Positions 20,528 through 37,559 of a DNA stretch of 47,964 nt are shown piece after piece. The DNA comes from an uncultured Bacillota bacterium (lineage in GTDB: Bacteria > Bacillota_I > Bacilli_A > RF39 > UBA660): NCBI GenBank assembly GCA_947364595.1, contig CANATJ010000003.1, forward strand, positions 1 through 47,964. The letters run 5' to 3'. The translations under genes were made by a program, and so were the position numbers. Position 1 is the first letter of the stretch, and every line of letters starts with the position of its first letter. Under the pieces are notes generated by a model. It was given only the letters and a program-made list of their open reading frames with translations, searched no databases and was not told the DNA's origin.

Positions 20528-20553
20528 GAAAAAATGAACATAATAGTTCATTT
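20527..20553 (-). terminator. Terminator of the wzx-to-20552 unit
   Basis: Minus strand: AAATGAAC pairs with GTTCATTT around a 6-base loop and runs into TTTCTTTT; it overlaps the stop codon of the gene at 20552. Confidence 0.82.
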
Positions 20554-21949
20554 AATAAATTAAAACATATAATTTATCTCCAACTACTTTTAGTTCATTT
20601 TTATCAAATTTATCATAATTTTTATTTTTAAAATATTTATTATAATCATTCTTAGACATTTTATTATATTCATATTTTTTTGTTGTATAAACAGGAACAG
20701 CACACTTCATAGCCCAATCGGTAGTGACAAGTCTTATATTACTTCCATTAGGATTACCAAAATAGTAATAATAATTTACTGAAGTGTCTTTCGCAAAATA
20801 CACCTTATTAATCTTCTTTTTTGTTTTCTTTTCATATGATGTAATTCGTTCATCAATATTTTTAATATATTTGATATCCTCTTTATATCTTTTAAAATTA
20901 ATCATTGCATTTTGATGAATATAATAAGCGTTTAAAAATCCTAATAAAACTAAAACTATTGAAATGACATATAAAAATTTATAGTCAAAATTAAATTTTG
21001 ATATTATAAACAAATATAATAAACTTGGAAAAGCGCCAAAAATTAAGGAACTCTTTCCATTTGTTCCAACAAAAATAGTTAAAACAAATACAAGCAAAGT
21101 TAAAAATATAAATGAAAATATATTATAACTTTTATTATCATTTTTAACAATTTGATATATTATACATCCAAGTAAAACGATAACAATTAAATAAAAATAT
21201 TTAATGTTAGTATATCCAAACAAATTAATAATAGAATTAAAATCTCCAATTAGGTAATTAGATTTCGCAAAATCTAATTTCATTAAAATAAATGCTAGCT
21301 TTACTATAATTAGACTTAAAATACATAATAATAAACCAATAATGATTTTTTTCAAAATTTCAAGTACATTATCCTTACTATTAAATTCTTTTAAATTAAT
21401 TAAAAGTAAAAAAACAGGTAAAAAGCAAATAATTTCTTTATAAGATAATATAGCTAAAAGAATAAAAACTAAAGACCAAAGATAATCTTTAAAATTATCA
21501 TTCATAAGTTTAAAAGTGGCCAAAAGGATAAACAAAATTCCCAAAGCAATAGTAAATCCTTGATCAATTAATAATATTTCTGTAATGAACGGATTATAAA
21601 AAATTAAAAATATACTGATTATCAACATTAATTTTTTAAAATTACCTTTTAAAGATAACTTATCTTGCAATTTAAAATATAATTTATATATAACAATTGC
21701 CAAAATCAAGTCAGTCAAAAATGCTGAAACAAAACTAAGCGAATCATATGGTAATTTAAAGAAATTAAACAAATTGAAAAACAGATAATTTAGCACTTCT
21801 CCATTTTGTAAAAATGACAAAGCGGTTTGTTTAAATCCATTATATATTGTACAATAACTTTCTAAAGAATGAGAATTTGCAAAAAAAGGATAACTAAAAA
21901 TAATGCAAGTGCTAAAAATAAGCAAAAACAAAGTTACTTTCTTTTTCAT
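20552..21949 (-). CDS. Polytopic membrane protein, GT-C/GtrII-like glycosyltransferase candidate
   Basis: A 465-residue integral membrane protein with about ten to twelve helices and a soluble C-terminal tail of about 100 residues (from ERITSYEKKTKKKINKVYF) rich in Tyr, Lys and Asn. This shape recalls GtrII-type serotype-conversion glycosyltransferases and related GT-C proteins, which take sugar from a polyprenyl-phosphate donor outside the membrane. I see no decisive motif, so the call rests on topology and context. Its ATG overlaps the stop of the ligase-like gene (ATGA) and the ribosome site GGAAGGAT is within that gene. It ends the unit before a clear terminator. Confidence 0.6.
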   Translation of the reverse strand: MKKKVTLFLLIFSTCIIFSYPFFANSHSLESYCTIYNGFKQTALSFLQNGEVLNYLFFNLFNFFKLPYDSLSFVSAFLTDLILAIVIYKLYFKLQDKLSLKGNFKKLMLIISIFLIFYNPFITEILLIDQGFTIALGILFILLATFKLMNDNFKDYLWSLVFILLAILSYKEIICFLPVFLLLINLKEFNSKDNVLEILKKIIIGLLLCILSLIIVKLAFILMKLDFAKSNYLIGDFNSIINLFGYTNIKYFYLIVIVLLGCIIYQIVKNDNKSYNIFSFIFLTLLVFVLTIFVGTNGKSSLIFGAFPSLLYLFIISKFNFDYKFLYVISIVLVLLGFLNAYYIHQNAMINFKRYKEDIKYIKNIDERITSYEKKTKKKINKVYFAKDTSVNYYYYFGNPNGSNIRLVTTDWAMKCAVPVYTTKKYEYNKMSKNDYNKYFKNKNYDKFDKNELKVVGDKLYVLIY

Positions 21950-23430
21950 TTTAAATCCTTCCTTTCCAGATTATTGTAAATAACAAGCGAAAGCATTCCT
22001 ATAACAAAGGATAAATTCATCATCGGACTTACCCAACCAAATACATGACCAGAATAATAAGCAATTATAAGCCCTAAAGCCACACTAGTGCATGCCATAA
22101 TAGTTCTAAAATAAAAGTTTTTATTGAAATTACGCAATCCTTTATAAGCTAAATAACCAATGAATATAAAATATGGTCCCATTAAAATAATCATACCTAG
22201 AAGACCAAATTCATAATATTGATAATAATAATCACGTTCTAAATCAGGGAAATACAAAGTATAGCCCATTCCAAAGAATTTATCGCTAGGATTATTATTC
22301 CTTTCATAAACTCTTTTAATCATATCGGTTTTCATTCTACGGCTATTATTATTTAATGCTTTATCTCTTTTAATCATTTGAAGCCAGAATTCTGGATCTT
22401 TATTGATAGGATAAATTTTCAAGAAATAATCATTTATTAAATATTCACTTTTATATTTTTCCATCAACTTATCTAAATTTTTAATATCAGTGCTTTCGAT
22501 TTCTTTATAAGCTGTTGCGTCCTTAACCGAAAAATCTGGAGTACCTTCATTTATTCTTCCAAGCATAAAAGGAGAAATAGTTAAAAAGGCAATACATGTC
22601 AAAGATGCAACGAAAAATGTTTCATTAAAAAATTTATTAACTTTTTCTTTCTTAATAATTACTAAGAAAACGTAAACTAATCCTGCAAATACACTAATAA
22701 GTAAAGTACCATAGGCTGCAGTTCTTGTTCCAAGTAATATCATAGCAATAAACTGTAAAACAAAGATTACTAAATTACTTTTTTTCTTTTCATCAAAAAG
22801 CATATATATATTAATTGGGAAAAGCATAAACATTGTTGCAGAAAGTTCGTTTGCAGAGTCAAAAAAACCTCTAGCTGATAATTGTCTAAAATCTCCTTGA
22901 AAAAGGAAATAATCAAATAAATTATACATAACATGCCCTTTGGTGTTATAAGAAATAAATGATAATTTAAATATATCTAATATAATAATTGAAGCTGAAA
23001 TAATAATAATTATGCATTTAGAAATCTTAAAATAAAATTTTTTATCAAAAACATCCTTATTGTTAATTAAAACAAACAATAACATAAGGGGCAAAACATA
23101 TGCCCTTAAAATATAAAATGTTTCAGAAACAAAGTTAAAATTAGCTCTTGAAAAAATATTAGTGTCGAACTTAATTATATTTTGATAATGAAGGAAAATG
23201 TAAACAAACACCACCAATAAATATCCAAACAAACATAATATTTTTTTCTTAGAAATTTTAGTTAAAGTTAAAATTAAAGCTATACCAATTAAAACTATAT
23301 TTACAAGTTCAATTAAGGCAATACCACAAAATTCCACATCCTTAAAAGATGTTGTTCTAAGCATATCTAAAAACGGAAGATTAATTAGTAAAATCGAAAT
23401 TAATATTTTTATTATCTTATTTTTATTCAT
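21946..23430 (-). CDS. O-antigen ligase/polymerase-like membrane protein (Wzy_C)
   Basis: This 494-residue protein has about twelve hydrophobic helices and a large outer loop (about 290-400), the usual shape of Wzy polymerases and WaaL ligases. The segment AMILLGTRTAAYGTLLISVF corresponds to the conserved helix start with an Arg in this family, and the outer loop leads into FFGMGYTLYFPDLERDYYYQ before the last helices. In the Wzx/Wzy scheme it would join flipped repeat units outside the membrane. AGAGGTGATAAT precedes ATG 23430. Since wzx is in the same unit, polymerase is more likely than ligase. Confidence 0.82.
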   Translation of the reverse strand: MNKNKIIKILISILLINLPFLDMLRTTSFKDVEFCGIALIELVNIVLIGIALILTLTKISKKKILCLFGYLLVVFVYIFLHYQNIIKFDTNIFSRANFNFVSETFYILRAYVLPLMLLFVLINNKDVFDKKFYFKISKCIIIIISASIIILDIFKLSFISYNTKGHVMYNLFDYFLFQGDFRQLSARGFFDSANELSATMFMLFPINIYMLFDEKKKSNLVIFVLQFIAMILLGTRTAAYGTLLISVFAGLVYVFLVIIKKEKVNKFFNETFFVASLTCIAFLTISPFMLGRINEGTPDFSVKDATAYKEIESTDIKNLDKLMEKYKSEYLINDYFLKIYPINKDPEFWLQMIKRDKALNNNSRRMKTDMIKRVYERNNNPSDKFFGMGYTLYFPDLERDYYYQYYEFGLLGMIILMGPYFIFIGYLAYKGLRNFNKNFYFRTIMACTSVALGLIIAYYSGHVFGWVSPMMNLSFVIGMLSLVIYNNLERKDLK

Positions 23431-23434
23431 ATTA

Positions 23435-24379
23435 TCACCTCTTTATTTTTTGAAAAAAGCTAATGACTTTATACATCCTTAAATAAAATAATCTCATCAG
23501 TAACTTTTCTTTAAAAGTATGCTTTTTTAAATATTCATTTTTTTTCCAATTAGGAAATTTTTCTTTCATAAATAAAGAAATTTTATCAATTTGTTTTAAC
23601 TTATTATATTTATAAAAATTTAATGATCCTAAATATAATAAGTGATAGATTAATAAATATTCCAATTCTTTATTATAACCAAAGCCATTTAAATTATCAT
23701 ATAAATAGTTACAAGCAACAAATATGTCTTCGTACTTTTTCTTATATTCTTTATTAATCATAGTGGAACCTTCATGATGTACATAATGCATAAAGGCCTC
23801 GCTTAAATAATAGCAATTTGGATTATATTTAGCAAGAGTTGGAATAGACGCAAAATCTTCATAAATAATTTTTTCAGGAAAAATAAAATTATTTTCTTTT
23901 AAAAATGATGACTTAAACATTTTGTTACAAGGACCTACTCCAGAAAATAAATATTCTAAAGCGGTTATTTTTCTAGATGAAAAATCAAATGTTTTTTTAT
24001 AGCTATCTATTCCATCAGTAGTATTGAAATAATCTGCACTAACAATATCATAATCATTGCTGATGGCAACATTGTAAAGTTTTTCACACATATCTTCATT
24101 GACATAATCATCGCTATCAATAAACATAATATACATGCTGCTACTTTTTTTAATGCCTAAGTTTCTGGCAGATGCTTGTCCACCATTTTCCTTATCAATT
24201 AAAATAATTCTTTCATCAGATAAATATTTTTCAATAATGCTTCTACTTTTATCAGTAGAACCATCATTAACAAAAATTATTTCAATATCTTTAAGTGTTT
24301 GATTAATCAAACTATTAATACATTTATCAAGATATTTCTCAGTATTATAAACTGGAACTATTATACTTACTTTATTCAT
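23435..24379 (-). CDS. Glycosyltransferase family 2, 314 aa
   Basis: A GT2 enzyme starting VSIIVPVYNTEKYLDKCINS, with FVNDGSTD, GGQASARN and the metal site FIDSDDY. GVGPCNKMFKS and IYEDFASIP follow, in the same order as in the product starting at 17446. The C-terminal motif FPNWKKNEYLKKH is shared with the two GT2 products of the next unit, suggesting duplication within the locus. The start ATG 24379 overlaps the GT14 stop by 8 bases, with GAGGT as the ribosome site. The sugar is not known. Confidence 0.9.
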   Translation of the reverse strand: MNKVSIIVPVYNTEKYLDKCINSLINQTLKDIEIIFVNDGSTDKSRSIIEKYLSDERIILIDKENGGQASARNLGIKKSSSMYIMFIDSDDYVNEDMCEKLYNVAISNDYDIVSADYFNTTDGIDSYKKTFDFSSRKITALEYLFSGVGPCNKMFKSSFLKENNFIFPEKIIYEDFASIPTLAKYNPNCYYLSEAFMHYVHHEGSTMINKEYKKKYEDIFVACNYLYDNLNGFGYNKELEYLLIYHLLYLGSLNFYKYNKLKQIDKISLFMKEKFPNWKKNEYLKKHTFKEKLLMRLFYLRMYKVISFFQKIKR

Positions 24380-25268
24380 TGTTTACCTCTTTTAAATATT
24401 CAAATATTTTATCAATAATTTTATTTTCCTTAGTAGAAAATTTTCTTGCCCAAAAACACTTGCTGTTTATTACTTCATCAAAATCTTCGTTTTTAAATGA
24501 ATATGGACATCCTCTTTGCCAATCAATATATCTTTTAATACTAGCAGTATCATCATTTTTTAAACTACAGACATTTTTATAAAAATCACTATTATATAAA
24601 AGTGTTTGTATAAATAGCTCATCCGCGCAAAAACTATATTTAAAAATCTTTTTAACTTCATTTTCTTTAGAAATAACATAATTGGCAAACTCATGCGTAA
24701 TGCTTACCCAATTAGCGCCTTTTCTAAAAGTCCAATTACAGTTTTTAAGTCTATTAACTTTAAATAATTTTTGAATTTTTAAAACATAAAAATGAACTTT
24801 CCCAAACATTTTTCTTAAAATTTTATTAGAAGAACGTGCCCAAGAAACAGGGAAATGGTAATATTTTACTCTTGATAAAGCATCTTCACTTATATCTTTA
24901 TGATTATCAAATGCAACAAATTCTACTCCTTTGTTTTTTAAGAAAAATTTTTGTATTTTGTCATTACTAGCAATAGGCATATCTACCCCTGAAATTATGT
25001 GATAATAATCGTATTTTCTTTTAGTAGCTTCTTTTAACAAAATATATTCACACATAATTTGCTTGTAACTACCCCACTTAACATCAATTCTGGAAGTAAA
25101 ATAAACATTACTTTTTTTACAAAGATTTTTAAAATATTCAAAGTCAAAATCCTTAACTTTTTTATCGACATGTATATAAATATCATTGTTTTTATCGTCT
25201 AAAAGCAAAAGACTTTTTTTTAAAATATCAAATTCATTATGAGTCATTATTAAATATGCGTGTTTCAT
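24372..25268 (-). CDS. Core-2/I-branching-type glycosyltransferase (GT14)
   Basis: The 298-residue protein matches the beta-1,6-N-acetylglucosaminyltransferase-like GT14 family. Blocks visible are AYLIMTHNE, DIYIHVDKK, HIISGVDMPI, GANWVSIT and ADELFIQTLL, all in the family order. In bacteria such enzymes occur in capsule and exopolysaccharide clusters, where they probably make a branch or a chain linkage. GGGAGG precedes ATG 25268. It stands between wzx and a GT2 gene. Confidence 0.85.
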   Translation of the reverse strand: MKHAYLIMTHNEFDILKKSLLLLDDKNNDIYIHVDKKVKDFDFEYFKNLCKKSNVYFTSRIDVKWGSYKQIMCEYILLKEATKRKYDYYHIISGVDMPIASNDKIQKFFLKNKGVEFVAFDNHKDISEDALSRVKYYHFPVSWARSSNKILRKMFGKVHFYVLKIQKLFKVNRLKNCNWTFRKGANWVSITHEFANYVISKENEVKKIFKYSFCADELFIQTLLYNSDFYKNVCSLKNDDTASIKRYIDWQRGCPYSFKNEDFDEVINSKCFWARKFSTKENKIIDKIFEYLKEVNNE

Positions 25269-25280
25269 ATTATATCCTCC

Positions 25281-26804
25281 CTATGCATGGCGTCTTTTTA
25301 ATAAATGCTTTACCCTATATATAACATCTTTAAATGCCTCACTATTATGATAAGCTAAAATAATTACAATAGTTGGGACAATTAAACTAATAATTAATCT
25401 AACTGCAATAGTAACAATTAAACTATCAACATTAATAAAATTAATACATAGCATAGATAAAGCAAAACCAATTACAATAGTAAATAATTGTTTTAAAAAT
25501 GAAGCAAAATAATTAATGACATTACGGTCAAAAATATACTTATAAGCAATAATTGGTTTAATAATTAAAGGTAAAAGCGTACTTATAGCTGTTCCAATAA
25601 ACACACCTACTAATCCAATTTTTTGCGCTAAAACAATACTAATAATCAAATTTACAAAAGATTGAATTAATGGGACAAACTTATCTTTATCATATAATCC
25701 GGCAGCTGTTTGAAAAGTAATAGGAACATTATTCATACCAGTCAAATAATGATTTAATACAATAACTGCTGTAACAGACATAGGCAAAAGAAATTTAGCT
25801 CCAAAACAAAATTCAATAAATGGTGTAAATACTGTTAAAAAGCAAACAGAACTAACTCCATATAAGCAATAGCAAATGAAATCCATTTCTTTAAAAATTT
25901 TATATTTCTTTTCTTTTGCTTCCTTAGCAATCAAATTACCAACTGAAGCTGTTACATTACTAATTAAAACGTAAATAAATGAACCAATCATATTTACTAC
26001 AAGAACGTAATTAGAATAAATACCAACTGCAACAATACCAATAATTTTAGAAATAACAATATTATCAGTTGAAGTTAAAACATAAGAACCAACTTTATGT
26101 AATAATAAGGCTTTGATATTAGTCTTAATTGTACCCAGTTCTTTTTTATCAAGTTTAGTATCTTTCATATCATCTTTCAAATAAGGATATGCTTTATTTA
26201 TATAATGATTTACTGTAACATTTTCTAAAATAACACATAAAGTTTGCATTAACAAATAAACTATATAGTTTTTAAAAATCAATAAAACACTAATTTGTAA
26301 TATAGTCATCAAAAAATTATAGAACATAACAATTGGCATAATCTTATATGTTTTTTGATCAGCACCAATTAAAGTCCTTTTATAAGAAAATAAATAACCA
26401 ATAACCATATTAGCTAAAAATATCAAATAAATTAAAGTTAAATTTTCAATGCCAGAAGTATCTTTAATAAACCATGGTAAAAATGGCACTAAAATCAAGC
26501 CCATGGTCAAAACCACTAAAGCAACAACTCTATATGCCTTCTTATAAAAATTCATAAGAGCTTTTATTTTATCAATATTTTTATCAGCAAGTGGTTTATA
26601 TAAACTATATCCAATTGCTGTAGAAATACCAAGCTCGCTCAAGGCTAAAAGCCCTAAAACGTTTGAACAAAGACCGTTAACTCCTAAATAGACATCAGAT
26701 AAAACTTTAATAAAAATTATTCTTGAACAAAATCTTAAAAGATTTAAAAGCAAATTATTAGCAAAATTACCAATAATATTTTTGATTGAATTTATTGTTC
26801 TCAT
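25281..26804 (-). CDS. Wzx-type oligosaccharide flippase
   Basis: A 507-residue protein with about 12 to 14 hydrophobic helices from the MOP superfamily, which flips lipid-linked repeat units across the membrane. The N-terminus, NIIGNFANNLLLNLLRF followed by FIKVLSDVYLGVNGLCSNVL and LSELGISTAIGYSLY, is typical of polysaccharide flippases in Firmicutes. It is the first gene of its unit; GAGGT precedes ATG 26804. It works with the Wzy-like protein two genes downstream. Confidence 0.9.
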   Translation of the reverse strand: MRTINSIKNIIGNFANNLLLNLLRFCSRIIFIKVLSDVYLGVNGLCSNVLGLLALSELGISTAIGYSLYKPLADKNIDKIKALMNFYKKAYRVVALVVLTMGLILVPFLPWFIKDTSGIENLTLIYLIFLANMVIGYLFSYKRTLIGADQKTYKIMPIVMFYNFLMTILQISVLLIFKNYIVYLLMQTLCVILENVTVNHYINKAYPYLKDDMKDTKLDKKELGTIKTNIKALLLHKVGSYVLTSTDNIVISKIIGIVAVGIYSNYVLVVNMIGSFIYVLISNVTASVGNLIAKEAKEKKYKIFKEMDFICYCLYGVSSVCFLTVFTPFIEFCFGAKFLLPMSVTAVIVLNHYLTGMNNVPITFQTAAGLYDKDKFVPLIQSFVNLIISIVLAQKIGLVGVFIGTAISTLLPLIIKPIIAYKYIFDRNVINYFASFLKQLFTIVIGFALSMLCINFINVDSLIVTIAVRLIISLIVPTIVIILAYHNSEAFKDVIYRVKHLLKRRHA

Positions 26805-26832
26805 TTAATTACCTCAATTCTAACTCTATATA

Positions 26833-26841
26833 AGTATAACA
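26833..26841 (-). promoter_or_regulatory. Extended -10 promoter element before wzx
   Basis: Minus strand: TGTTATACT (TG at 26840-26841, TATACT at 26833-26838), 29 bases before the start codon. No good -35 is seen; the upstream DNA is a T-rich run. Confidence 0.6.
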
Positions 26842-26868
26842 AAATTTTAAAAAAAATACTACATAAAC

Positions 26869-26894
26869 AGCCTCATTAAATTAATAATGAGGCT
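26869..26894 (-). terminator. Terminator after the IspD-like gene
   Basis: AGCCTCATTA and TAATGAGGCT form a 10-bp stem with a 6-base loop just after the stop at 26901. The T-run is not immediate (GTTTATGTAGTATTTTTTTT), so termination may be leaky into wzx. Confidence 0.7.
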
Positions 26895-26900
26895 AATATC

Positions 26901-27614
26901 TTATTCACTTTCTTTTTCAATTCTATATAAAGTTTCAAACAAATGAAAATCTTCAATAGTTGTGATTTTTAAATTAGAATTTTTACCCAACACAAAATTT
27001 AATTTATAATTATTTTTAAACATTAAAGAACAAGAATCCCAATTATTAACGTCATCTTCTTTAATAGCTTTTTCATGGGCAGCATATATTTCATTTAATC
27101 TAAAACATTGTGGAGCCTTTGCGTGATAAGCATGGCTTCTATTTAAAATATTATCTATATTTTTATTATCTGAACTCATAAAAATTGTTTCTTGAGCTGG
27201 ACTAACAGTTATAGAATTACCCTTTTCTTTAACTGTTTTAATATTTTCTAAAATCAAATTTTCGTCAATATTAGGTCTTACTGCATCATGAATAAGTAAA
27301 ATAGCATCTTTATCTATTTCCTCATCATCGTATACTGCTTTAATACCATTATATATAGATAATTGGCCTGTTTCACCGCCTTTAGAAATATGTTTAACCT
27401 TTTTAATGTTATATTTTTCTAAAAGTTCTTTAAGATAAGGAATATATTCTTCTAAACAGGCAATAGAAATATAATCAATTGCATCACAATTCTCAAATTT
27501 TTCTAATGTATGAATAATTATAGGTTTATTATCAACTTCTAAAAATTGTTTTGGTTTTACTGTTTTTCCCATACGAGAACCGATACCACCGGCAAAAATT
27601 ACTGCTACATTCAT
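26901..27614 (-). CDS. IspD/TarI-like CTP-dependent cytidylyltransferase
   Basis: The 237-residue protein has the IspD-family nucleotide-binding start FAGGIGSRMGKTVKPKQFLEV, then LLIHDAVRPNI and the late block NLKITTIEDF. Family members join CTP to a sugar or polyol phosphate (methylerythritol, ribitol, arabinitol or others). Because it is directly behind a nucleotide-sugar-type dehydratase/reductase in a glycan locus, and not with MEP pathway genes, I read it as making a CDP-activated unit for the polymer, perhaps used by LicD. Its AGGAGG ribosome site is the end of the preceding gene, so they are coupled. The real substrate is open. Confidence 0.82.
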   Translation of the reverse strand: MNVAVIFAGGIGSRMGKTVKPKQFLEVDNKPIIIHTLEKFENCDAIDYISIACLEEYIPYLKELLEKYNIKKVKHISKGGETGQLSIYNGIKAVYDDEEIDKDAILLIHDAVRPNIDENLILENIKTVKEKGNSITVSPAQETIFMSSDNKNIDNILNRSHAYHAKAPQCFRLNEIYAAHEKAIKEDDVNNWDSCSLMFKNNYKLNFVLGKNSNLKITTIEDFHLFETLYRIEKESE

Positions 27615-27616
27615 TG

Positions 27617-28672
27617 TTAATCCTCCTTAAAACTGTTTACAGTTTTTTCTAATCCTTTTTTTAAGCTAATTTTAGGCTGCCAACCAAGTTTTCTTAATTT
27701 ATCTGTATTCATTCTAGTCCTTTTAAAACTACAATAAGCAGCTTGTTGCTCTTTAGTTGCTTTTTTATAAGTAACTGTTAAATTTTTTGAAGGAAAAATG
27801 GAAACTAACAAATTAGATAAATTAAGAATTGATATTTCCTCTTGTTCATTTGAAAGATTATATAATTCATTATCATTTCCTACAAACGCTCCATAAAGCA
27901 ACCCAGAAATTAAATCAGTTAAATAACAAAAAGCTCTTATTGCGCTACCATCACTTTTTAAAACAATATCTTCATTTCTAACAACATTGCCAATCAAATC
28001 AGACATAATTCTACCATCATTATTAATTGGCATTCCAGGACCATAACTATGAGCAATTCTAAAAATGGTAAAAGGAACATTGTATTGAAGATTATATGAA
28101 TTAATTAGGCATTCAGCCATTTTTTTGCTTTCGGGATAACATGCTCTAGTTCCCATTTGATCAATAATGCCTAAATCATCTTCGTAAATTTCTTCTTTAC
28201 CTTCAACTTTTCCATAAACTTCTCTAGTAGAAGCAAAAATTAATTTAGCATTATTTTTTCTAGAAAATTCTAATGCATTTATAAGACCAATAGTATTAGC
28301 TTTTATTATGTCAACTGGTCTATTTAAAATATTTGTAGGATCAGCACTACTAGCTAAATGGAATAAATAATCTATCTTAAAATCAAAATCAAATTTATCG
28401 TTAACATCGTGGCAAATAAATTCTACATCTTCTCTTTGTAAAATATCTGCATATTTGTTATTAGTTTTTTCTAAATTTCTTGTAAGTGCATATATTTTTA
28501 TATTTTTATTTTTTTTATCGTTTAAATAGCAAAAGAAATATAGTAAATATGTTGCAATCATTCCATTACAACCTGTAATCATTATCTTACTTTCATTTTT
28601 AATGCTATCTATATAACTTTCATTAATTAAATTTTCCATGTCATCTTGGATAATTCTATCTAAAAATCTCAT
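27617..28672 (-). CDS. NAD-dependent epimerase/dehydratase (extended SDR)
   Basis: An extended short-chain dehydrogenase of 351 residues. The cofactor loop is TGCNGMIA (G34, G37), the catalytic residues are S148/T149 in ASTREVYG and Y179-x3-K183 (YPESK), and AHSYGPGMP and AFCYLTDLISGL match enzymes acting on nucleotide sugars, such as UDP-glucuronate decarboxylases. Coupled to the cytidylyltransferase gene, it may change a CDP-sugar, as proposed for CDP-arabinitol or CDP-mannitol pairs in pneumococcal capsules. I take ATG 28672, with GGAAGG before it; an in-frame ATG 54 bases upstream lies within the promoter region. Confidence 0.83.
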   Translation of the reverse strand: MRFLDRIIQDDMENLINESYIDSIKNESKIMITGCNGMIATYLLYFFCYLNDKKNKNIKIYALTRNLEKTNNKYADILQREDVEFICHDVNDKFDFDFKIDYLFHLASSADPTNILNRPVDIIKANTIGLINALEFSRKNNAKLIFASTREVYGKVEGKEEIYEDDLGIIDQMGTRACYPESKKMAECLINSYNLQYNVPFTIFRIAHSYGPGMPINNDGRIMSDLIGNVVRNEDIVLKSDGSAIRAFCYLTDLISGLLYGAFVGNDNELYNLSNEQEEISILNLSNLLVSIFPSKNLTVTYKKATKEQQAAYCSFKRTRMNTDKLRKLGWQPKISLKKGLEKTVNSFKED

Positions 28673-28697
28673 ATTCTCAATCCTTCCGCTATAATTA

Positions 28698-28726
28698 ATT
28701 ATATCATATTTAATTATTAACAACAA
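28698..28726 (-). promoter_or_regulatory. Promoter of the epimerase-cytidylyltransferase unit
   Basis: Minus strand: TTGTTG (28721-28726), 17-base spacer, TATAAT (28698-28703) with TG extension (TGATATAAT). The -35 lies in the tail of the terminator before it. Confidence 0.75.
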
Positions 28727-28749
28727 GAAAAGGACATAATTATGTCCTT
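28722..28749 (-). terminator. Terminator of the pssD-to-28740 unit
   Basis: A perfect 20-base palindrome (AAGGACATAATTATGTCCTT, 28730-28749) overlaps the end of the gene at 28740 and is followed on the minus strand by TTCTTGTTG. Confidence 0.78.
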
Positions 28750-30224
28750 AAACCAGATTCTTTTTTTGTTACCAAAATGAGTTTGCTTTTTTTATCAATT
28801 CCCATAACATATTTAAAAGTGTCAACCAAAAATCCTTCTTCACCCCAAGGTGTTACATTCCATGTATAATATGAGGGTGTAATAATAACTTCAATTTCAT
28901 TTTTTCCATCTTTTATTTGTCTTTTGATATAATTATCTCTATCGCTTACCAAACCATGATAATAAACTGCATAAATAGTAAACAATAATGAAAATAGTGC
29001 TATAAGTATGGTAATAATTACATTAGTTTTTTTACTTTTTATAAATTTATCGTCTAATTTGTTAATAATGGATAACATTAATAAATAAAGCATAACTGTT
29101 GTTAAAAAGGCTGTTCTTTCTCCCCATACAGGCGATATCATCATTGATCCATTACTAATAATAGCTATAAGAAAAAATAGAAATGCTTTGAAATCCTTAG
29201 TATCTTTCAAATATTTAATTATAAAATAAATAACAATTATGGTAAAAATTAACCAGTAAACTATCACATACCATTTTTCTACCATTAAAAGGCGCCACAA
29301 GCCAATGACATGATGTCTAGTAATAAATGTTAAAGTCTGAGTAATTGAAGTCAAAGCAGAAATTAAAACAAAGACAGATAGTGTTAATTTAATTTTTTTT
29401 GAAGATACATACCTATTAATTAAAATTAATAACGCATATATAATTATTATCAATAAAAAGGCATTTTTAATATAAGTATAATTTATTAAAGAAGGAATAT
29501 TATAAATAAACTTTCCTAAAATTGATAAATTTGAAAAATCACCTTCATAATTTAATCTAGCTCTTGTCCCAGGACTAGTAATCATTAAAATAAGTCCTAT
29601 TAAACTTAAAACAAAGCTTAAAAGCATAGGAATATTAATTTTTTTGTTTTTAATAAAAGTGTAAATAGTAAAAACTAAACAGACAATTACTATCGAAACA
29701 GAAACATTTTCGACAAACATTGAAAAAGGAAGTGCTAATAAAATAACGATATATTTAAGAAGTTTATTATCTTTTGCTAAAAAATTAAAATAGAATAATA
29801 AAGTTAAATAAAACATTGGAAATAAATAAGTTATATTACCAGTTTTCCAAACATAAACTTGTGCGAAAGCCGTAGAATTAATCAAAAGTAATGAAAGGAT
29901 AAACAAACTTAATACTGTATTATTTTTAGGATTAATTATTTTAGTAAATGTATAAACAATAAAAGTCATAATACTAGCATTTAACAAACTCCAAACAATT
30001 TGCCTAGGAACCAATAGTCCTAAACAAATTCTACTAAAAAATCTACCTTCCCAAGTCATAAAATCAGAAATAGCAATATTAATTATAGATGATAAATTCC
30101 CCTTTCCATCTAATAAATTATTCCAATCATCACCACCATAAGGCATTAATAAGCTAATGATTAAAAAGAAAGAAAAGATAAAAATATAATAATATGTACT
30201 TTTCTTATTAAAAATTTTTTTCAT
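28740..30224 (-). CDS. Polytopic membrane protein, DUF6056/GT-C-like
   Basis: A 494-residue membrane protein with about twelve helices. The first outer loop has GGDDW, and later loops have VWKTGNITYLFP, ITSPGTRAR and VWGERTAF; the early acidic pair and the SPG-x-x-R motif recall the DUF6056/GtrII-like group often found in surface glycan clusters. I infer an extracytoplasmic glycosyltransferase using a polyprenyl-phosphate sugar. The C-terminal 60 residues form a soluble outer or inner domain ending KKSKLILVTKK. ATG 30224 follows AGAGGTG. It is the last gene of its unit, behind the lectin-lysozyme gene. Confidence 0.6.
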   Translation of the reverse strand: MKKIFNKKSTYYYIFIFSFFLIISLLMPYGGDDWNNLLDGKGNLSSIINIAISDFMTWEGRFFSRICLGLLVPRQIVWSLLNASIMTFIVYTFTKIINPKNNTVLSLFILSLLLINSTAFAQVYVWKTGNITYLFPMFYLTLLFYFNFLAKDNKLLKYIVILLALPFSMFVENVSVSIVIVCLVFTIYTFIKNKKINIPMLLSFVLSLIGLILMITSPGTRARLNYEGDFSNLSILGKFIYNIPSLINYTYIKNAFLLIIIIYALLILINRYVSSKKIKLTLSVFVLISALTSITQTLTFITRHHVIGLWRLLMVEKWYVIVYWLIFTIIVIYFIIKYLKDTKDFKAFLFFLIAIISNGSMMISPVWGERTAFLTTVMLYLLMLSIINKLDDKFIKSKKTNVIITILIALFSLLFTIYAVYYHGLVSDRDNYIKRQIKDGKNEIEVIITPSYYTWNVTPWGEEGFLVDTFKYVMGIDKKSKLILVTKKESGLRT

Positions 30225-30232
30225 AAGCACCT

Positions 30233-32737
30233 CTAATCAAATATGTCATATCCCAAATCTAAATCAACATTACCTTCAACCCCAGCAATTCTACCATCAG
30301 AAGCAAATTGCCAATAATTATAAGGAGTTAAATTATAATTAGGCCTTTTTGTTTTAGCATAACTATAACTAGGACTATATACTGGTAAATAATTAGCAAG
30401 CCATATAGTGTATTTTGAATGTAGATATTGAGCATCTAAATAATTAGTAAACCAATTAATATTTGCGTATACTCCACACTTGTAACCATTATTTTGGATA
30501 ATTGTGCAGAAAGTATCGACAACTTCTGTAAGTTTTTGTTTACCAGCAGAAATAACAGAGGCATCTTCCATATCGATAAATACTTTAGTTCCAAGTTTAA
30601 AATTACTATTAGATTCTTTAATAGAATCAATAAGTCTTAACATATGCTTTGCTTCAGCTTCAGCAGAACCAGCAGTAGTACCAACATCGGAAGCATAAGA
30701 ATATAGATATAATCCATAAGGAATATTATTTTCGTTGCATCCTTTAATGTTTTCTTGGAAAAACTTATCATCTTGATGTGTCCAATCATCACCATATCCA
30801 CCACGAATAATAGCAAAATCAATTGAATCTTCAACTTTATTCCAATTTATTTGTTTTTGATGATGGGAAACATCGATTCCATTATAAGTTTTCTTTTGAG
30901 TGAATTCAGTCAATTTAAATTGTTGGTTTTCTTCCATGTTATATGGTTTAACACTAACATTAACAAAATTGTTAGCTGTTTTATCAATGGTTAAATAATT
31001 ACCGTTTTCTTTAGAAATTATTGAAACTTTTTTATCTCCTAAATCTTTAAGATACCATGTTTGATTATTGCTTCCATTATATCTATATAATTGGGCGTTC
31101 CCAGTACTACTAGATAAATCTAAAGCAACATTAGGATTCATAGCTGTAGTAATTGAATAGTATCCATTATTTAAATATGTTAACTTCCAAGTTTGAGCAT
31201 TATTATAATTTCTTTCATATAATTGAATATTAGTTCCGTTTAACTTTCTTGCCCCTGTAGCATCAAGTAAAAATTTTTCATTTTGAATGCTTGAAATAGT
31301 ATAATATCCATTATCAAATGTTTTTGATTCAGGGTTTAATTCAGTTTTAGATAAAACAAATCTTTGCGCTGAAGAACCATTACCATAATACATTTGAATG
31401 TTAGATCCGTTTTCTATTTTTCCACCTTTGACATCTAAAAATAAATTATTACATTTAGAAACAAAACTATAAGTTCCATCCATATTGTCTTTAATATACC
31501 AAGTTTGAGCTCCGGTTCCATTATAAGCATATAATTGAACATTGCTTCCAGAAGATGTAGATGCTCCATAAACGTCCATAGATTTTAAACCATCTAAAGC
31601 GGTTTTAATAGAATAGTAACCATTTCCAAGATTTTTTATATACCATTTTTGTCTATTAGTATTACGATTTTCTTCTAATAAAACATTAGCTTTATTAATA
31701 GAAATTTCAGTATTTAAACTAAGAAGCATATTGCTGTTAGTTGCACTACCAATTGTATATAGACCATCTTCTAGTGAAGTGTGTGTAACTTTTTCAAACG
31801 AAAACTTTTGGGCATTTGAATTATTATTGCGATAAATCCATATATTGCTATTGTCTTGGGCTTTACCACCAGCTACATCTAAATAAGCATGATCTAGTTT
31901 AGAAATAATATTGAAATATCCATCATTGGTTTTTCTAATTAACCAAGACTGGGCATTAGAATAATTTGAGTTAAACATCCAAACATTTGTCCTGCTCACA
32001 CTACTTGCACCAGCTACATCTAAACTTTGATAATTATTCAAAAATGAAGTGATAGAATAATATCCGTTATTTAAATATTTTAAATTCCAATACTGAGATA
32101 AACTATTATTATCTTTTTTTAGTAAAACATTAGCTCTGTTTTGAGGATTATTATTGTTAATGTCAAAAACATAGTTTTTGTCTATTTTAGAAGAAATTTT
32201 ATAAATTCCATCTTCTATAGAATAACTACCATTAATAATTTCGATTAATTTGAATTTTTGGGCTTTAGTACCATTTCCTTTATACATTTGGATATTTGTA
32301 GAATTACGAGTGCTTCCTCCTTTAACATCCATATATAAATTATTACATTTAGATACTAAATAATAATAACCGTCGCCAGCGTCTTTAATATACCATTTTT
32401 GAGCGTTTGAACCATTGTATTGATACAGTTGGACGTTTGTTCCGTTGCTTCTGCCAGCAGATTTTACATCTAATGAAAAATTCTCATCAATTAAACTAGT
32501 AATAGAATAATAACCATCGCCAGCATTTTTAATATACCATTTTTGAGCATTTGAATCGTTGTATTGATACAATTGAATATTGTTATTATTATATGATTTT
32601 CCTGAATATAAATCTAAAACTTTATTACTATCTAAAGCACTTTGTATTTTATATATTCCCTCTTCTATTGAAGCAGCATTTACATTTAATGTAAATAGAA
32701 AAAATGTTATAAAAATTAAAAATATTTTCTTTTTCAT
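30233..32737 (-). CDS. Secreted GH25 lysozyme with four ricin-type lectin domains
   Basis: An 834-residue exported protein. A signal peptide (about 1-21, ending VNA) is followed by twelve repeats of roughly 45-50 residues, each with a Q-x-W or Q-x-F motif (NAQKWYI, LSQYWNL, GAQTWYI and so on). Every third repeat ends in the F form, so they group into four beta-trefoils at about 22-167, 170-315, 320-463 and 472-611. The C-terminal GH25 muramidase domain (about 617-834) starts with GIDVSHHQ, has the catalytic DMED near residue 720 and the late NVDLDL block. It would cut peptidoglycan between MurNAc and GlcNAc while the lectins bind glycan. ATG 32737 follows AAAGGAC, 14 bases after pssE. Confidence 0.93.
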   Translation of the reverse strand: MKKKIFLIFITFFLFTLNVNAASIEEGIYKIQSALDSNKVLDLYSGKSYNNNNIQLYQYNDSNAQKWYIKNAGDGYYSITSLIDENFSLDVKSAGRSNGTNVQLYQYNGSNAQKWYIKDAGDGYYYLVSKCNNLYMDVKGGSTRNSTNIQMYKGNGTKAQKFKLIEIINGSYSIEDGIYKISSKIDKNYVFDINNNNPQNRANVLLKKDNNSLSQYWNLKYLNNGYYSITSFLNNYQSLDVAGASSVSRTNVWMFNSNYSNAQSWLIRKTNDGYFNIISKLDHAYLDVAGGKAQDNSNIWIYRNNNSNAQKFSFEKVTHTSLEDGLYTIGSATNSNMLLSLNTEISINKANVLLEENRNTNRQKWYIKNLGNGYYSIKTALDGLKSMDVYGASTSSGSNVQLYAYNGTGAQTWYIKDNMDGTYSFVSKCNNLFLDVKGGKIENGSNIQMYYGNGSSAQRFVLSKTELNPESKTFDNGYYTISSIQNEKFLLDATGARKLNGTNIQLYERNYNNAQTWKLTYLNNGYYSITTAMNPNVALDLSSSTGNAQLYRYNGSNNQTWYLKDLGDKKVSIISKENGNYLTIDKTANNFVNVSVKPYNMEENQQFKLTEFTQKKTYNGIDVSHHQKQINWNKVEDSIDFAIIRGGYGDDWTHQDDKFFQENIKGCNENNIPYGLYLYSYASDVGTTAGSAEAEAKHMLRLIDSIKESNSNFKLGTKVFIDMEDASVISAGKQKLTEVVDTFCTIIQNNGYKCGVYANINWFTNYLDAQYLHSKYTIWLANYLPVYSPSYSYAKTKRPNYNLTPYNYWQFASDGRIAGVEGNVDLDLGYDIFD

Positions 32738-32750
32738 AGTTTTGTCCTTT

Positions 32751-33230
32751 CTAAATATTGTCAATATAATTTTTTAAATTATTTCTAAAAGTTTCTGTGT
32801 TGCTTTTAAATTTTTTTGGTTTAAAAACTTTAGCCTTTTTTAAAATATCATCTAATTTATCAAAATCACTTAAAGATAAAATATATCCTTCAGACGTAAA
32901 AGCATCTATTATTTGAATTTGGTGATCGTTAGTATGTTCTTTATATTTTTTAAGTCTAGCAGCCGCAATTACTTTTTTTCCTTTTTTTAGACCACTAATA
33001 ATTGATCCTACCCCACCATGAGTAATAAGTAAATCACATTCATTAATATATTTGTTAAATGATTCACTATCAACTAGGTCAAAAATTTGCATATAATCAC
33101 TTTTAAACTTTGTGTGGCCAGCCTGCACAATGACTTTATCTTTAATGACACCATTTTTTATTTGTTTTTCAATAGCATATAGTAATCTATCAAATTTTTT
33201 ATCTTGTGTTCCTAACGTTACAAAAATCAA
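32751..33230 (-). CDS. pssE: PssE-like glycosyltransferase subunit (Alg13/GT28 C-terminal)
   Basis: The 159-residue protein is the catalytic half of a two-piece GT28-type glycosyltransferase (Cps14G/PssE, like yeast Alg13). It starts IFVTLGTQDKKFDRLL and has the donor-binding block DLLITHGGVGSIISGLKKGK near residues 70-90. I choose TTG 33230 as start: GGGGTGG stands before it, the protein then begins at the usual family position, and TTGA overlaps the pssD stop. An ATG 15 bases upstream would add five residues not typical of the family. With PssD it adds a sugar to the lipid-linked unit, often the second one. Confidence 0.87.
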   Translation of the reverse strand: MIFVTLGTQDKKFDRLLYAIEKQIKNGVIKDKVIVQAGHTKFKSDYMQIFDLVDSESFNKYINECDLLITHGGVGSIISGLKKGKKVIAAARLKKYKEHTNDHQIQIIDAFTSEGYILSLSDFDKLDDILKKAKVFKPKKFKSNTETFRNNLKNYIDNI

Positions 33231-33694
33231 TATATCCACCCCCATAATTCAGCTTTTGGGTATAATTTAAGCATAGATTCCCATTGTACGATAAATTTGT
33301 CAGCAATTGGATAAACAAGTTTCCCAGCTAATGTTTTAGTGTTTCTGTTTGCAAACGTTTCAATAAAAATAATTTTTCTTCTAAATAGTTTTCCAATATA
33401 GCACATAGGAACAGCTGTATGGGTACCTGTTGTTACAATGATATTGGGTCTATATTTAATAAAAAGAAAAATACTTTTAAAACAATTATAAATGAATTTA
33501 AAAATATAAGAGAATAAATGATCTTTAGTCCCAAAAACTAAAAAAGAAACTTTTGGAAATTTATTTTTTAAATTAATATTTGATTTAGTTTTTTCTGTAA
33601 CTATACTATAATCATAATTTTTAAAAATTGGTTTTAATTGCATAAGCTCATCTAAATGACCACCAGTACTAGAAATAAACATTACTTTTTTCAT
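33227..33694 (-). CDS. pssD: PssD-like glycosyltransferase subunit (Alg14)
   Basis: The 155-residue membrane-anchoring partner of PssE. It begins KVMFISSTGGHLDELMQL, has a hydrophobic amphipathic stretch (SYIFKFIYNCFKSIFLFI), and the conserved IIVTTGTHTAVPMCYIGK and IFIETFANRNTKTL blocks of Alg14/Cps14F proteins. It is thought to recruit the catalytic subunit and the acceptor lipid to the membrane. It overlaps pssE by 4 bases (TTGA) and is the first gene of its unit; AGGTGGGAG precedes ATG 33694. Confidence 0.9.
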   Translation of the reverse strand: MKKVMFISSTGGHLDELMQLKPIFKNYDYSIVTEKTKSNINLKNKFPKVSFLVFGTKDHLFSYIFKFIYNCFKSIFLFIKYRPNIIVTTGTHTAVPMCYIGKLFRRKIIFIETFANRNTKTLAGKLVYPIADKFIVQWESMLKLYPKAELWGWIY

Positions 33695-33720: not shown

Positions 33721-33748
33721 AGTATATCATACATTTAAATTTTTACAA
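33721..33748 (-). promoter_or_regulatory. Promoter of the pssDE unit
   Basis: Minus strand: TTGTAA (33743-33748), 16-base spacer, TATACT (33721-33726) with TG extension (TGATATACT). Confidence 0.7.
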
Positions 33749-33778
33749 AAAAAGAAACGTTAAAAATAATTTTAACGT
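33746..33778 (-). terminator. Terminator after the UbiA/GT-C unit
   Basis: Minus strand: ACGTTAAAA pairs with TTTTAACGT around a 4-base loop and is followed by TTCTTTTTTT. It overlaps the stop codon of the gene at 33772. Confidence 0.85.
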
Positions 33779-35376
33779 CCATAATGTTGAAGTCCAAATT
33801 GAATCAAATTAATATATTCTGGAATATTTATTATACATAGGCAAATACAGATTAAAATTATTAATCCAAATTTAAATTTTTTGTTTTTGATAATTTTATC
33901 AATTAATAAGTATAGTAAGATTATAAATGCCCAAGAAAAATATAAAGAATATAAAATTAAACCATTTTCGGCAGTTCCCCAGCCTACAACACATAACAAA
34001 ACGAAAGAAAATAAAATCCAAACAGATGATATAATAGCCATTTTGTTTTTTCTATTTAAAATAAAACTGATTAAGCATAAAATTAATATACCTATTCCAA
34101 TTAAACTAAAACCATAAATATCTAATACTCTATAGCTTGGTAAATGCGTTACTTTATCTAGCATAAAACCTGATTTTGGAAATATGAAAATAGATCTAAC
34201 AAAGGCCAAATATTGAACTAATTTTTCACTGAAAAGCAATTTTTCTCCAGAAAATCCAAATAAAACTTTAATTCTTTCTACAACATAAAAAATTTGTGGA
34301 AGTTGACCAAATATAATAAAAAGCACAATAAATAAAATAAAACATTTAAAGACGTTTTTAAGCCAATATTTCCAATTTTTAAATTTAGAAATAAAAGGAA
34401 ATAAGATACCAGATGTAAGCAAAGTTGAAACCGCACCTATGTAAGCATAATTAACTTCTTTTTTACTTTCATAAAAAGCATAAATTGTTAATATTAGATA
34501 AAAAAGTCCAATAATATACTGTTCCATAATAAAACTAAATACTACTGTAGAGAAAGTACAAAAATATATTAAAGAAAATAAAAATTGATTTAATCCTTTT
34601 AATTTCAACAATCTACAAAGCATGATAACAGAAACATTAATAAGTAAAATTTGAATTACTGTTAAAAAAACTGCATATCCGTTAGGAACAAAATAAAATA
34701 TTTCACTAAATAATTTGGCAAAAATAGCAAAAGGTAAAGAGAATAATCCAAATAATGGTTGTCTTAAATCATTTTCTCCCATATTAACATTTAAAAATGC
34801 ATTACCTTTAAATAAAGCTGCACTATCAGAAGTATAATAAATATCATATGCGACTGATTTATCAAAATAAAAACCTCTTACAAAATAGTATAAGAATACA
34901 GTTGCTAAAAAAGAAATAATCAAACTAATAGCTAAATATCTTTTTTCGTTTAACGATAAATTTAAATAAAATTTTTTAATAACAGGAAATATTTTTAAAA
35001 TAAATAAATAAACAATACAACTTAAAGCAAAAATTGAAAGCATGCTTATAATAACCCAATGTTGACTAGTAAATTTACCAACATATGATAAATTATTAAA
35101 ATAATCTAAAATATGAAAATTAAAATATGTTTTAGCAATATATGTTCCGAAAAAAAGCGAAACAACTGCATATATAGTATTTATATTGGCAAAAAAACTC
35201 TTAAAAGTTTTCATTGTCAAAACTAAGCCAATAATAAAAGTTAATATTAGTGAAAATACTAAAACATAAAAATCACAATTTCTTAAAAAAAGTAAATTCG
35301 TAAATAAAAGTGAAAATACAAATAATACTTTTAATAAGATTTGCATTTTCAAAGATAACTTAATTTCCTTATTCAT
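33772..35376 (-). CDS. Large polytopic membrane protein, candidate GT-C pentosyl/glycosyltransferase
   Basis: A 534-residue protein with about twelve or more membrane helices and no soluble domain of size. The loop after residue 165 has acidic residues suited to a GT-C active site (VAYDIYYTSDSAALFKGNAF) followed by GENDLRQPLFG. The unit has only this gene and a polyprenyl-phosphate phosphoribosyltransferase, 11 bases apart, so I infer that it moves the lipid-bound pentose onto an acceptor outside the membrane, as arabinofuranosyltransferases do in mycobacteria. There is no clear sequence match to those enzymes; the role rests on topology and pairing. GAGGTGGTGA precedes ATG 35376. Confidence 0.6.
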   Translation of the reverse strand: MNKEIKLSLKMQILLKVLFVFSLLFTNLLFLRNCDFYVLVFSLILTFIIGLVLTMKTFKSFFANINTIYAVVSLFFGTYIAKTYFNFHILDYFNNLSYVGKFTSQHWVIISMLSIFALSCIVYLFILKIFPVIKKFYLNLSLNEKRYLAISLIISFLATVFLYYFVRGFYFDKSVAYDIYYTSDSAALFKGNAFLNVNMGENDLRQPLFGLFSLPFAIFAKLFSEIFYFVPNGYAVFLTVIQILLINVSVIMLCRLLKLKGLNQFLFSLIYFCTFSTVVFSFIMEQYIIGLFYLILTIYAFYESKKEVNYAYIGAVSTLLTSGILFPFISKFKNWKYWLKNVFKCFILFIVLFIIFGQLPQIFYVVERIKVLFGFSGEKLLFSEKLVQYLAFVRSIFIFPKSGFMLDKVTHLPSYRVLDIYGFSLIGIGILILCLISFILNRKNKMAIISSVWILFSFVLLCVVGWGTAENGLILYSLYFSWAFIILLYLLIDKIIKNKKFKFGLIILICICLCIINIPEYINLIQFGLQHYGR

Positions 35377-35387
35377 AGTTCACCACC

Positions 35388-36266
35388 TCACAACCAAATA
35401 AATAAAATAACTAAAATATAAATTAAAGAAGTACATAATAATGGCTTGTTTTGCAATATAACTTCTACAGGATCTCCATCAGAATCATTTTCAACTGATA
35501 AACTATATTGAAATAACATTATCATTAAAATGGGTATAGTCCAAATTAAATAATCATTGCAAATTTTATTAGTAACAATTGGATCAACAGTCCACATAGA
35601 ATAAAAAACAATTGTTAATGTTAAACAAACATACATACTTTTATCTAAAAAGTCTTTATTATAATGTTTTAATACAGAACGTGTATTATATTTACTTCTA
35701 ATAAATTCATTTCTTCTTTTACCGAATCCCATATAAAAAGCTCCAGACATAACAGTAAGATAAAGATAATTAGAAACTTCGGCACCAATTAAAATTCCTC
35801 CAAAAAACAAACGAATTAAAAACCCAGAAACTAAAATAACTACATCAACAAGAGCAATATTTTTAAGCCCTTTACTATATAAAATATTAATAATTACATA
35901 AATTAGTGGTAAAAGTAATGACCCAAAAAATCCACTAACAACATATATACCATATGCACATATACCAATTATAAAAATTAATAAAAAAGTGACAATGTAA
36001 GCTTTTCTAATTGAAATAGCACCAGACGCTAAAGGTCTATTTTTTTTGGTTTCATGCAATTTATCTTTTTCAACATCCGCAATATCGTTAAAAACATAAA
36101 CCAAAGATGAAACAAAACAAAATAATATGAAACCTAATAAACAAAGTAATAACTTATCTAATTGATTATACATACCGCTAAAAAATAAAGGCAAAAATAT
36201 TAAAAAATTCTTAATATAGTGCTTTACTCTAATCAAACGCAAATAATCGGAAAATTTTGCCATCAT
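35388..36266 (-). CDS. Polyprenyl-phosphate phosphoribosyltransferase (UbiA family, DPPR synthase-like)
   Basis: A 292-residue UbiA-superfamily protein with about nine helices. It closely follows the pattern of mycobacterial decaprenyl-phosphate phosphoribosyltransferase (Rv3806c/UbiA): RVKHYIKNFLIFLP at the start, FNDIADVEKD (N60, D61, D64, D68) leading into KKNRPLASG, then YSKGLKNIALVDVVILVSGF with LIRLFFGG, GKRRNE, and GDPVEVIL near the end. Such enzymes join phosphoribosyl pyrophosphate to a polyprenyl phosphate, the first step to lipid-bound ribose or arabinose. Menaquinone or haem prenyltransferases lack the DVEKD-x-LHETKKNRPLASG arrangement. It is first in a two-gene unit with a candidate glycosyltransferase. 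Confidence 0.85.
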   Translation of the reverse strand: MMAKFSDYLRLIRVKHYIKNFLIFLPLFFSGMYNQLDKLLLCLLGFILFCFVSSLVYVFNDIADVEKDKLHETKKNRPLASGAISIRKAYIVTFLLIFIIGICAYGIYVVSGFFGSLLLPLIYVIINILYSKGLKNIALVDVVILVSGFLIRLFFGGILIGAEVSNYLYLTVMSGAFYMGFGKRRNEFIRSKYNTRSVLKHYNKDFLDKSMYVCLTLTIVFYSMWTVDPIVTNKICNDYLIWTIPILMIMLFQYSLSVENDSDGDPVEVILQNKPLLCTSLIYILVILFIWL

Positions 36267-36288: not shown

Positions 36289-36317
36289 ATTATACATTGA
36301 TTTTGCATATATTTCAA
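36289..36317 (-). promoter_or_regulatory. Promoter of the UbiA/GT-C unit
   Basis: Minus strand: TTGAAA (36312-36317), 17-base spacer, TATAAT (36289-36294), 23 bases before the start codon. Confidence 0.85.
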
Positions 36318-36443: not shown

Positions 36444-37559
36444 ATGAAGAAAGTAAGACAGTCTAATTTTGAGTTAATGAGAATTATATCCATGATTTTT
36501 ATAATTATATATCATATAATTTTTCATGGAAAGCTTTTGCAAAATACTACAGGAACAATCAAAATAGTATTAACAATAATGCTATTTATAAGCTTAATTC
36601 ATGTAAATTCATTTGTTATATTAAGTGGTTATTTTAAATATGACAAAGATTTTTCAATTAAAAGCTTTTTTAAAACTTTTAATGCTGCGTGGTTTTATAA
36701 AATATTATTTGCTAGTGTATTGCTTTTTACGGGCATATATGAATTAAGTAAAGTTCAATATCTAAAATCTTTAAATCCGTTTGATTTAGCTGGATACTGG
36801 TTTATAGCTTGCTATTTAATAATGGATATTTTAAGTCCGTTTATTAATATATTAATAAAAAATATGAATCAAAAAACTCATCGCAAGTTAATAATTACAT
36901 CGATATTCTGTTTTTCAATATTCTCTTTTCTATCATCAAATACTTTTGGAAGTAATGATGGCTTTACTGTAATTCAATTTATTATTTTATATTTTATAGG
37001 TGCTTATCTTGCGAAATATCCAATTGAAAATAATATTCATTTTAAAAATTATTCCAAAAACAAATTACAGCTTTTATTACTTGTAGGATTTATATTTTTT
37101 ACATTTATAAATTATTTATTCTATAATTTTGGAATAACTTTAGAAAATCAAACAAATCAAATTATTCAATTTGTTGGTAATCAAATAACAAATTATACAA
37201 TGCACTATAATTGTATATTTGTATTAATACAAACGATATGTTATTTTCTACTTTTTAAAACATTTACTATTAATAGCAAAATAATTAACTTTATTGGTAA
37301 ATTAACACTAGGAGTATATTTAGTGCATGATAATCCTTATATTCAAGTTCTAATATATAAATACTTGCGTTTTGATACTGGTGACGTATTAATAACAAGT
37401 CCTAAAATAATCATAAAAGTATTAGTTTTTGCTTTAGGGATATTTATTGTATCTGCATTCATTGAATATATAAGACAATTAATTTTTAAATTTGTGAAAA
37501 AATTAAAAATATCAAAAAACTTAACAAATAAATTTTATGATTATATAGATAATTTTTAA
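36444..37559 (+). CDS. Membrane acyltransferase, acyltransferase-3 family
   Basis: A 371-residue polytopic protein with about ten helices. The family start QSNFELMRIISMIFIIIYHI includes the likely catalytic His near residue 23; HVNSFVILSGYF and the late LGVYLVHDNPYI are further family marks. It resembles the WcfI/OafA-type acyltransferases that acetylate surface glycans. It is the only plus-strand gene beside the glycan locus and is divergent from the UbiA gene; GGGGGAAA precedes ATG 36444. A second acyltransferase of the same family is at 19405. Confidence 0.88.
   Translation: MKKVRQSNFELMRIISMIFIIIYHIIFHGKLLQNTTGTIKIVLTIMLFISLIHVNSFVILSGYFKYDKDFSIKSFFKTFNAAWFYKILFASVLLFTGIYELSKVQYLKSLNPFDLAGYWFIACYLIMDILSPFINILIKNMNQKTHRKLIITSIFCFSIFSFLSSNTFGSNDGFTVIQFIILYFIGAYLAKYPIENNIHFKNYSKNKLQLLLLVGFIFFTFINYLFYNFGITLENQTNQIIQFVGNQITNYTMHYNCIFVLIQTICYFLLFKTFTINSKIINFIGKLTLGVYLVHDNPYIQVLIYKYLRFDTGDVLITSPKIIIKVLVFALGIFIVSAFIEYIRQLIFKFVKKLKISKNLTNKFYDYIDNF

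Follow-up and report, generated by a model that had tools for sequence, protein, structure and literature searches.

Do two adjacent membrane-protein genes of an uncultured Bacillota bacterium make a lipid-linked pentose and hand it on to a surface glycan? The pair lies in the window analyzed here, a stretch of 47,964 nucleotides corresponding to contig C3 of a 1.04-Mb draft genome (89% complete). A sequence-only reading had proposed a DPPR synthase of the UbiA family paired with a large polytopic membrane protein, together forming a self-contained glycan-modifying cassette of a spore-former. Both open reading frames were found where this reading had placed them, on the minus strand, encoding 292 and 534 amino acids with a spacing of 11 bases (Table 1). 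The spore-former attribution is plausible, with Spo0A elsewhere in the genome and with SpoIIM (11582-12217) and a SpoIVB-type S55 peptidase (13431-14438) in the window, sporulation genes in a genome of ~1 Mb.

The same reading had credited the unit with its own promoter and terminator. Candidates for both signals do flank the pair, a promoter-like site ~23 bases upstream of the UbiA start and a terminator-like hairpin overlapping the end of the partner gene, but they stand at the level of consensus only: promoter-like sites across the region were no richer than in shuffles (29 versus 25.1 +/- 5.6), and a stricter consensus terminator scan did not call the hairpin.

Table 1. Position and basis of the features discussed, with the related Lactococcus cremoris operon.
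Feature	Position or accession	Strand	Basis or content
UbiA-family protein, PPPRS/DPPR-synthase-like, 292 aa	35388..36266	-	PF01040, NCBIfam NF008977, PDB 8j8j, invariant catalytic residues
GT-C-type glycosyltransferase, 534 aa, predicted pentofuranosyltransferase	33772..35376	-	structure model, PDB matches, linkage to PPPRS
Promoter-like TTGAAA-17-TATAAT	36289..36317	-	11/12 consensus match, consensus only
Terminator-like hairpin and T run	33746..33780	-	11 pairs, A+T-rich, -9.1 kcal/mol, z = -1.8
Surface polysaccharide cluster	14517..33694	-	GT2s, GT1, LicD, Wzy-like, Wzx-like, IspD/TarI-like, SDR, DUF6056, GH25, PssE, PssD
Acyl_transf_3 membrane acyltransferase (AT3)	36444..37559	+	PF01757, 1.5e-22; divergent from the pair, upstream
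L. cremoris operon GT-C / PPPRS / HAD / GtrA	NZ_CP068515.2		WP_262636771.1-WP_306726729.1-WP_262636770.1-WP_262636769.1

Enzyme class and fold of the two proteins

The UbiA-family protein, the only member of its family above threshold in the source draft, matched PF01040 (8.2e-22), and its NCBIfam ranking placed decaprenyl-phosphate phosphoribosyltransferase models first (NF008977, 9.7e-58) and second (2.1e-51), followed by the HAD-UbiA family PRK08238 (4.8e-42), the best model of another function reaching 2.9e-14. Ubiquinone-type (6.5e-9), haem O synthase (5e-6), and chlorophyll synthase (4e-5) models were more than 40 orders of magnitude behind the decaprenyl-phosphate phosphoribosyltransferase model, and the best match was not to a menaquinone, haem, or chlorophyll prenyltransferase. 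Moreover, the solved mycobacterial structure 8j8j matched residues 9 to 285 (1e-27). Since its score of 195.9 bits falls below the NCBIfam equivalog cutoff of 234, we assign the protein as PPPRS-like, an assignment that does not extend to strict equivalog membership.

Both motifs on which the DPPR-synthase identity had been proposed, FNDIADVEKD...KKNRPLASG and GDPVEVIL, are found in the protein. Invariant among 23 relatives are N60, D61, D64, D68, H71, K74, R77, and P78, as well as K183, R184, E187, D265, and P266; N60, D61, D64, and D68 represent the metal/PRPP residues, and R184 and E187 the RxxE pair. Residues corresponding to NDxxDxxxD and RxxE have been probed by mutation in the Citrobacter enzyme (Kelly et al. 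2024, PMC11127046). Altogether, the profile, structure, and residue comparisons favor the proposed identity and support membership in the polyprenyl-phosphate 5-phosphoribosyltransferase class, with a predicted activity on PRPP.

Searches of Pfam and NCBIfam with the 534-aa partner returned no matching model, and 14 of the 34 members of its family alignment touched DUF6080 (best 2.2e-7), for which no literature was found. The structure model built from this 34-sequence alignment (pLDDT 92.2, pTM 0.92) superseded an earlier, weaker one from a shallow alignment (pLDDT 77). In Foldseek comparison with the PDB, the nine best matches were all GT-C proteins, with probability up to 1.00: ALG12, Pmt4 twice, AftD, ALG9 twice, Pmt1-Pmt2, and ArnT with and without undecaprenyl phosphate. 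AftD is an arabinofuranosyltransferase. EmbC and ALG3 appeared further down, and transporters appeared at probability of at most 0.08. The individual scores were weak (E of 0.06 to 1, TM about 0.2 to 0.45), and hence the fold assignment is based on the consistency of the matches and not on a single strong hit; a BFVD structure search gave nothing useful. The model thus supports a GT-C-type glycosyltransferase, as the sequence-only reading had anticipated, and not the fold of a transporter devoid of a GT-C active site.

The partner is composed of an N-terminal four-helix module (residues 1 to 140; helices 9-30, 36-57, 67-90, and 104-138 in the model) and a GT-C core (142 to 534), amounting to ~13 helices in the whole protein. 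Across the 34 family sequences, D178 and D184 are invariant; they sit in the loop following the first helix of the core (YTSDS...RQPLFG), which we take to resemble the D...PPL loop of GT-C proteins, and from which we infer a catalytic role for the two aspartates; E285 and Y287 are further invariant residues of the core. The description of an acid-rich outer loop has to be corrected: residues ~167 to 209 hold five acidic and four basic residues, and hence conserved aspartates are present without an excess of acid. As regards the module, a fused GtrA or SMR flippase was considered and rejected (hhalign probability 15.9% for GtrA and 0.1% for SMR; positive control 97.5%). The full module is missing from the core proteins of L. 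cremoris and locus L143, and a region matching it is present twice in loci L112 and L152.

Conserved linkage and pathway partners

Of 99 related genomes, 25 carried the UbiA gene and 13 the partner; among 44 genomes of the genus, 11 of the 12 partner-positive ones carried both (Fisher p 7.7e-4, relatedness not corrected). A scan of a genome collection yielded 80 named UbiA-gene relatives from Bacilli, Clostridia, Spirochaetia, and one Planctomycetaceae MAG. In 26 of these 80 loci the partner family adjoins the UbiA gene on the same strand, the spacing usually falling between -26 and +24 bases. Divergence in one family tracks divergence in the other, with a correlation of r = 0.67 between their pairwise distances, a value reached by none of 2,000 permutations. 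Pairing of the two genes is far above chance.

A HAD phosphatase of one family lies within two genes of the UbiA gene in 38 of the 80 loci. It is fused to GtrA in Clostridium puniceum (L121; PF12710 1.5e-18, PF04138 8.7e-12) and in L053, and to another GT-C-like protein in L058, L059, and L064. On plasmid pF27D of L. cremoris, genes for GT-C, PPPRS, HAD phosphatase, and GtrA are consecutive within an exopolysaccharide cluster; no literature connecting Lactococcus exopolysaccharide with a PPPRS-type enzyme was found. A 6.6-kb record deposited as phage carries consecutive genes for PPPRS and, identified by sequence only, a HAD-like protein, an SMR-like protein, an SDR, and one large membrane protein. 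As a side observation, a sulfatase/LTA-synthase-like domain with a degenerate HAD-like N terminus stands beside a PPPRS-GT-C pair in another locus (L113:10661-12997).

Searches with PF12710 and the family profile found no HAD phosphatase in the source genome, and the family was not found in the nine other genus genomes having both genes of the pair; independent assembly misses would produce ten such genomes with a probability of 1.3e-8. One PAP2 phosphatase is encoded in the source genome, unlinked to the pair (contig C36), and PAP2 is also present in all DPPR-positive genomes checked. The mycobacterial 5-phosphatase is likewise not of HAD type (PMC11127046). No dedicated flippase is linked to the pair; unlinked candidates are a GtrA on contig C13, near a prepilin-like gene, and MATE proteins on contigs C20 and C50, and the Wzx-like protein of the cluster lies 7 kb away. 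The notion of a self-contained cassette is therefore not supported, since the unit contains neither phosphatase nor flippase and the HAD enzyme common among relatives is missing from this genome.

The sequence-only reading had seen no epimerase pair (DprE1/DprE2) in the window. FAD_binding_4, the DprE1-type domain, was not found in the source genome, and the copies listed for the genus are frames of 278 to 296 aa, the size of MurB; a home-made FAD profile, without a positive control in that set, found none in the neighborhoods. The lack of a DprE1-type flavoprotein in the genus makes ribofuranose more likely than arabinofuranose, in line with the ribofuranosyl outcome suggested earlier. As a separate observation, FAD_binding_4 was not found in 14 of 36 genus genomes checked, including the source, though Mur ligases are present, and these 14 thus have no detectable MurB; the UbiA gene occurs in 12 of them (p 8e-4, relatedness not corrected). 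The draft (89% complete) yielded no N-terminal domain of PRPP synthase (PF13793), which all control genomes have; because the enzyme is needed for nucleotide synthesis, this is probably an assembly gap rather than unusual biology.

Proposed route and competing readings

We propose a model, with a probability of roughly 75%, in which the pair makes polyprenyl-phosphate-ribofuranose and the GT-C protein moves the ribose to a surface glycan, phosphatase and flippase being unlinked. The UbiA protein would act on the cytoplasmic side, transferring 5-phosphoribosyl from PRPP to a polyprenyl phosphate that is probably undecaprenyl phosphate. An unlinked phosphatase would remove the 5-phosphate, and an unlinked flippase would expose the polyprenyl-phosphate-ribofuranose outside. 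The 534-aa protein would then transfer ribofuranose to the glycan, most likely the polysaccharide of the adjacent cluster. Of this model, the data show the class of the UbiA enzyme, the GT-C-like fold of its partner, their conserved linkage, and the linkage of relatives to HAD phosphatase and GtrA; that the sugar finally transferred is ribose, what accepts it, and which phosphatase and flippase serve the route are inferred. Counting against the model are the missing HAD phosphatase, the lack of a linked flippase, the UbiA score below the equivalog cutoff, the weak Foldseek E-values, the PRPP synthase gap, and an SDR in the cluster that might epimerize the ribose.

The lipid-linked ribose could be epimerized before its transfer, to xylofuranose via an SDR or to arabinofuranose via a DprE1/DprE2-like pair. 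An SDR (27617-28726; PF01370, 3.1e-34) is encoded in the same cluster, and in Citrobacter youngae O2 an SDR turns the donor into xylofuranose (PMC11127046). Nevertheless, we consider such a step unlikely, since the genus has no FAD_binding_4 protein of DprE1 size and the SDR adjoins the IspD/TarI-like gene, recurring with it and with LicD in L045 and L070, which makes it more likely part of a CDP-activated component. A pathway of two proteins only, in which either the PRP phosphatase has been lost and the GT-C protein transfers 5-phosphoribose or the four-helix module flips or dephosphorylates the lipid donor, has in our estimation a slim chance.

Retention of the 5-phosphate in this clade, with the 5-phosphoribosyl group going to the glycan, would account for the missing HAD in the ten genomes and for the lack of a dedicated linked replacement; it appears highly improbable, as PAP2 is present here and in every DPPR-positive genome checked, dephosphorylation could fall to a housekeeping enzyme, mycobacteria likewise use a non-HAD phosphatase (PMC11127046), and the same GT-C family lies next to HAD in other lineages. 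Could the partner instead be a flippase or transporter of the lipid-linked sugar, transfer being left to another GT-C protein of the cluster? Its ~13 helices, the otherwise missing linked flippase, and the transporters and receptors lower in the Foldseek list would be compatible with this. Yet GT-C proteins occupy all the best ranks, far above any transporter, the aspartates are conserved at the GT-C loop position, the core is related to DUF6080, and L. cremoris has a separate GtrA alongside the core, leaving this role improbable.

Related systems and the surrounding cluster

In the Citrobacter pathway described by Kelly et al. 2024 (PMC11127046), a PPPRS works together with a phosphatase of the HAD type, a putative flippase of the MATE type, and the GT-C protein that founded GT136; in C. 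youngae O1/O2 these are PPPRS-PRP ORF15, MATE flippase ORF14, and GT-C ORF12. The pentofuranose produced is ribose, xylose, or arabinose depending on auxiliary epimerases, and Gram-positive candidates and one phage candidate were mentioned (PMC11127046). Like that system, the window pair lies in a surface-polysaccharide cluster and combines a PPPRS of the PRPP-dependent UbiA type with a polytopic transferase resembling GT-C; unlike it, the pair has neither phosphatase domain or gene nor linked MATE flippase, and the partner belongs to a family without a Pfam or NCBIfam model and bears an extra four-helix N-terminal module. With the mycobacterial Rv3806c/DPA pathway it shares the UbiA fold, the NDxxDxxxD and RxxE residues, and a donor feeding GT-C enzymes, but the genome lacks DprE1, the phosphatase is not linked, and no Emb/Aft homologue was found by sequence. 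In L. cremoris pF27D, the GT-C core belongs to the partner's family (profile E 1.6e-96) and directly precedes a PPPRS 46.5% identical to that of the window; a HAD phosphatase and a short GtrA are added there, and the GT-C protein lacks the four-helix module. GtrA/GtrB/Gtr undecaprenyl-phosphate-hexose systems likewise use a lipid-phosphate sugar donor and an outer GT-C protein, but their donor is made from a nucleotide sugar via the GT2 GtrB, in place of UbiA and PRPP.

The window pair thus very probably belongs to the pentofuranose pathway of Kelly et al. 2024 (PMC11127046), in a Gram-positive form stripped to synthase and transferase, and does not represent a new principle. To that work (its supplement aside) the present analysis adds three things: a GT-C family that has no name is systematically linked to PPPRS across Bacillota, HAD occurs fused to GtrA and to GT-C, and the genus has a phosphatase gap. 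If the model is true, lipid-linked pentofuranose glycosylation reaches reduced-genome gut-type Bacillota, and the unnamed GT-C family found beside PPPRS in many Bacillota gains a likely function. Through its relative in L. cremoris, a cultured dairy organism, the pathway becomes testable, and the missing phosphatase sharpens the question of 5-phosphate removal in the source genus.

Downstream of the pair lie PssD and PssE and many glycosyltransferase genes of the surface-polysaccharide cluster, which is the probable source of the acceptor glycan. As the pair stands at one edge of this large region (about 14.5 to 36 kb), a more fitting description is that of a modifying unit belonging to the cluster. 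The divergent acyltransferase possibly acylates the same glycan; an AT3 gene lies within three genes of PPPRS in 14 of 25 loci of the genus set. Elsewhere, an SGNH/GDSL-type membrane-anchored protein is encoded directly upstream of the UbiA gene in L044, L045, L066, L093, L094, and L097, often with AT3 nearby, and acylation of the pentose is a possible role for the two. LicD (18600-19424), the IspD/TarI-like cytidylyltransferase (26901-27614), and the SDR form the trio recurring in L045 and L070, which could provide a CDP-activated decoration of the same polysaccharide. Within the cluster, 30233-32764 encodes a protein of 843 aa that has a GH25 lysozyme domain at its C terminus and ten matches to ricin-type lectin repeats.
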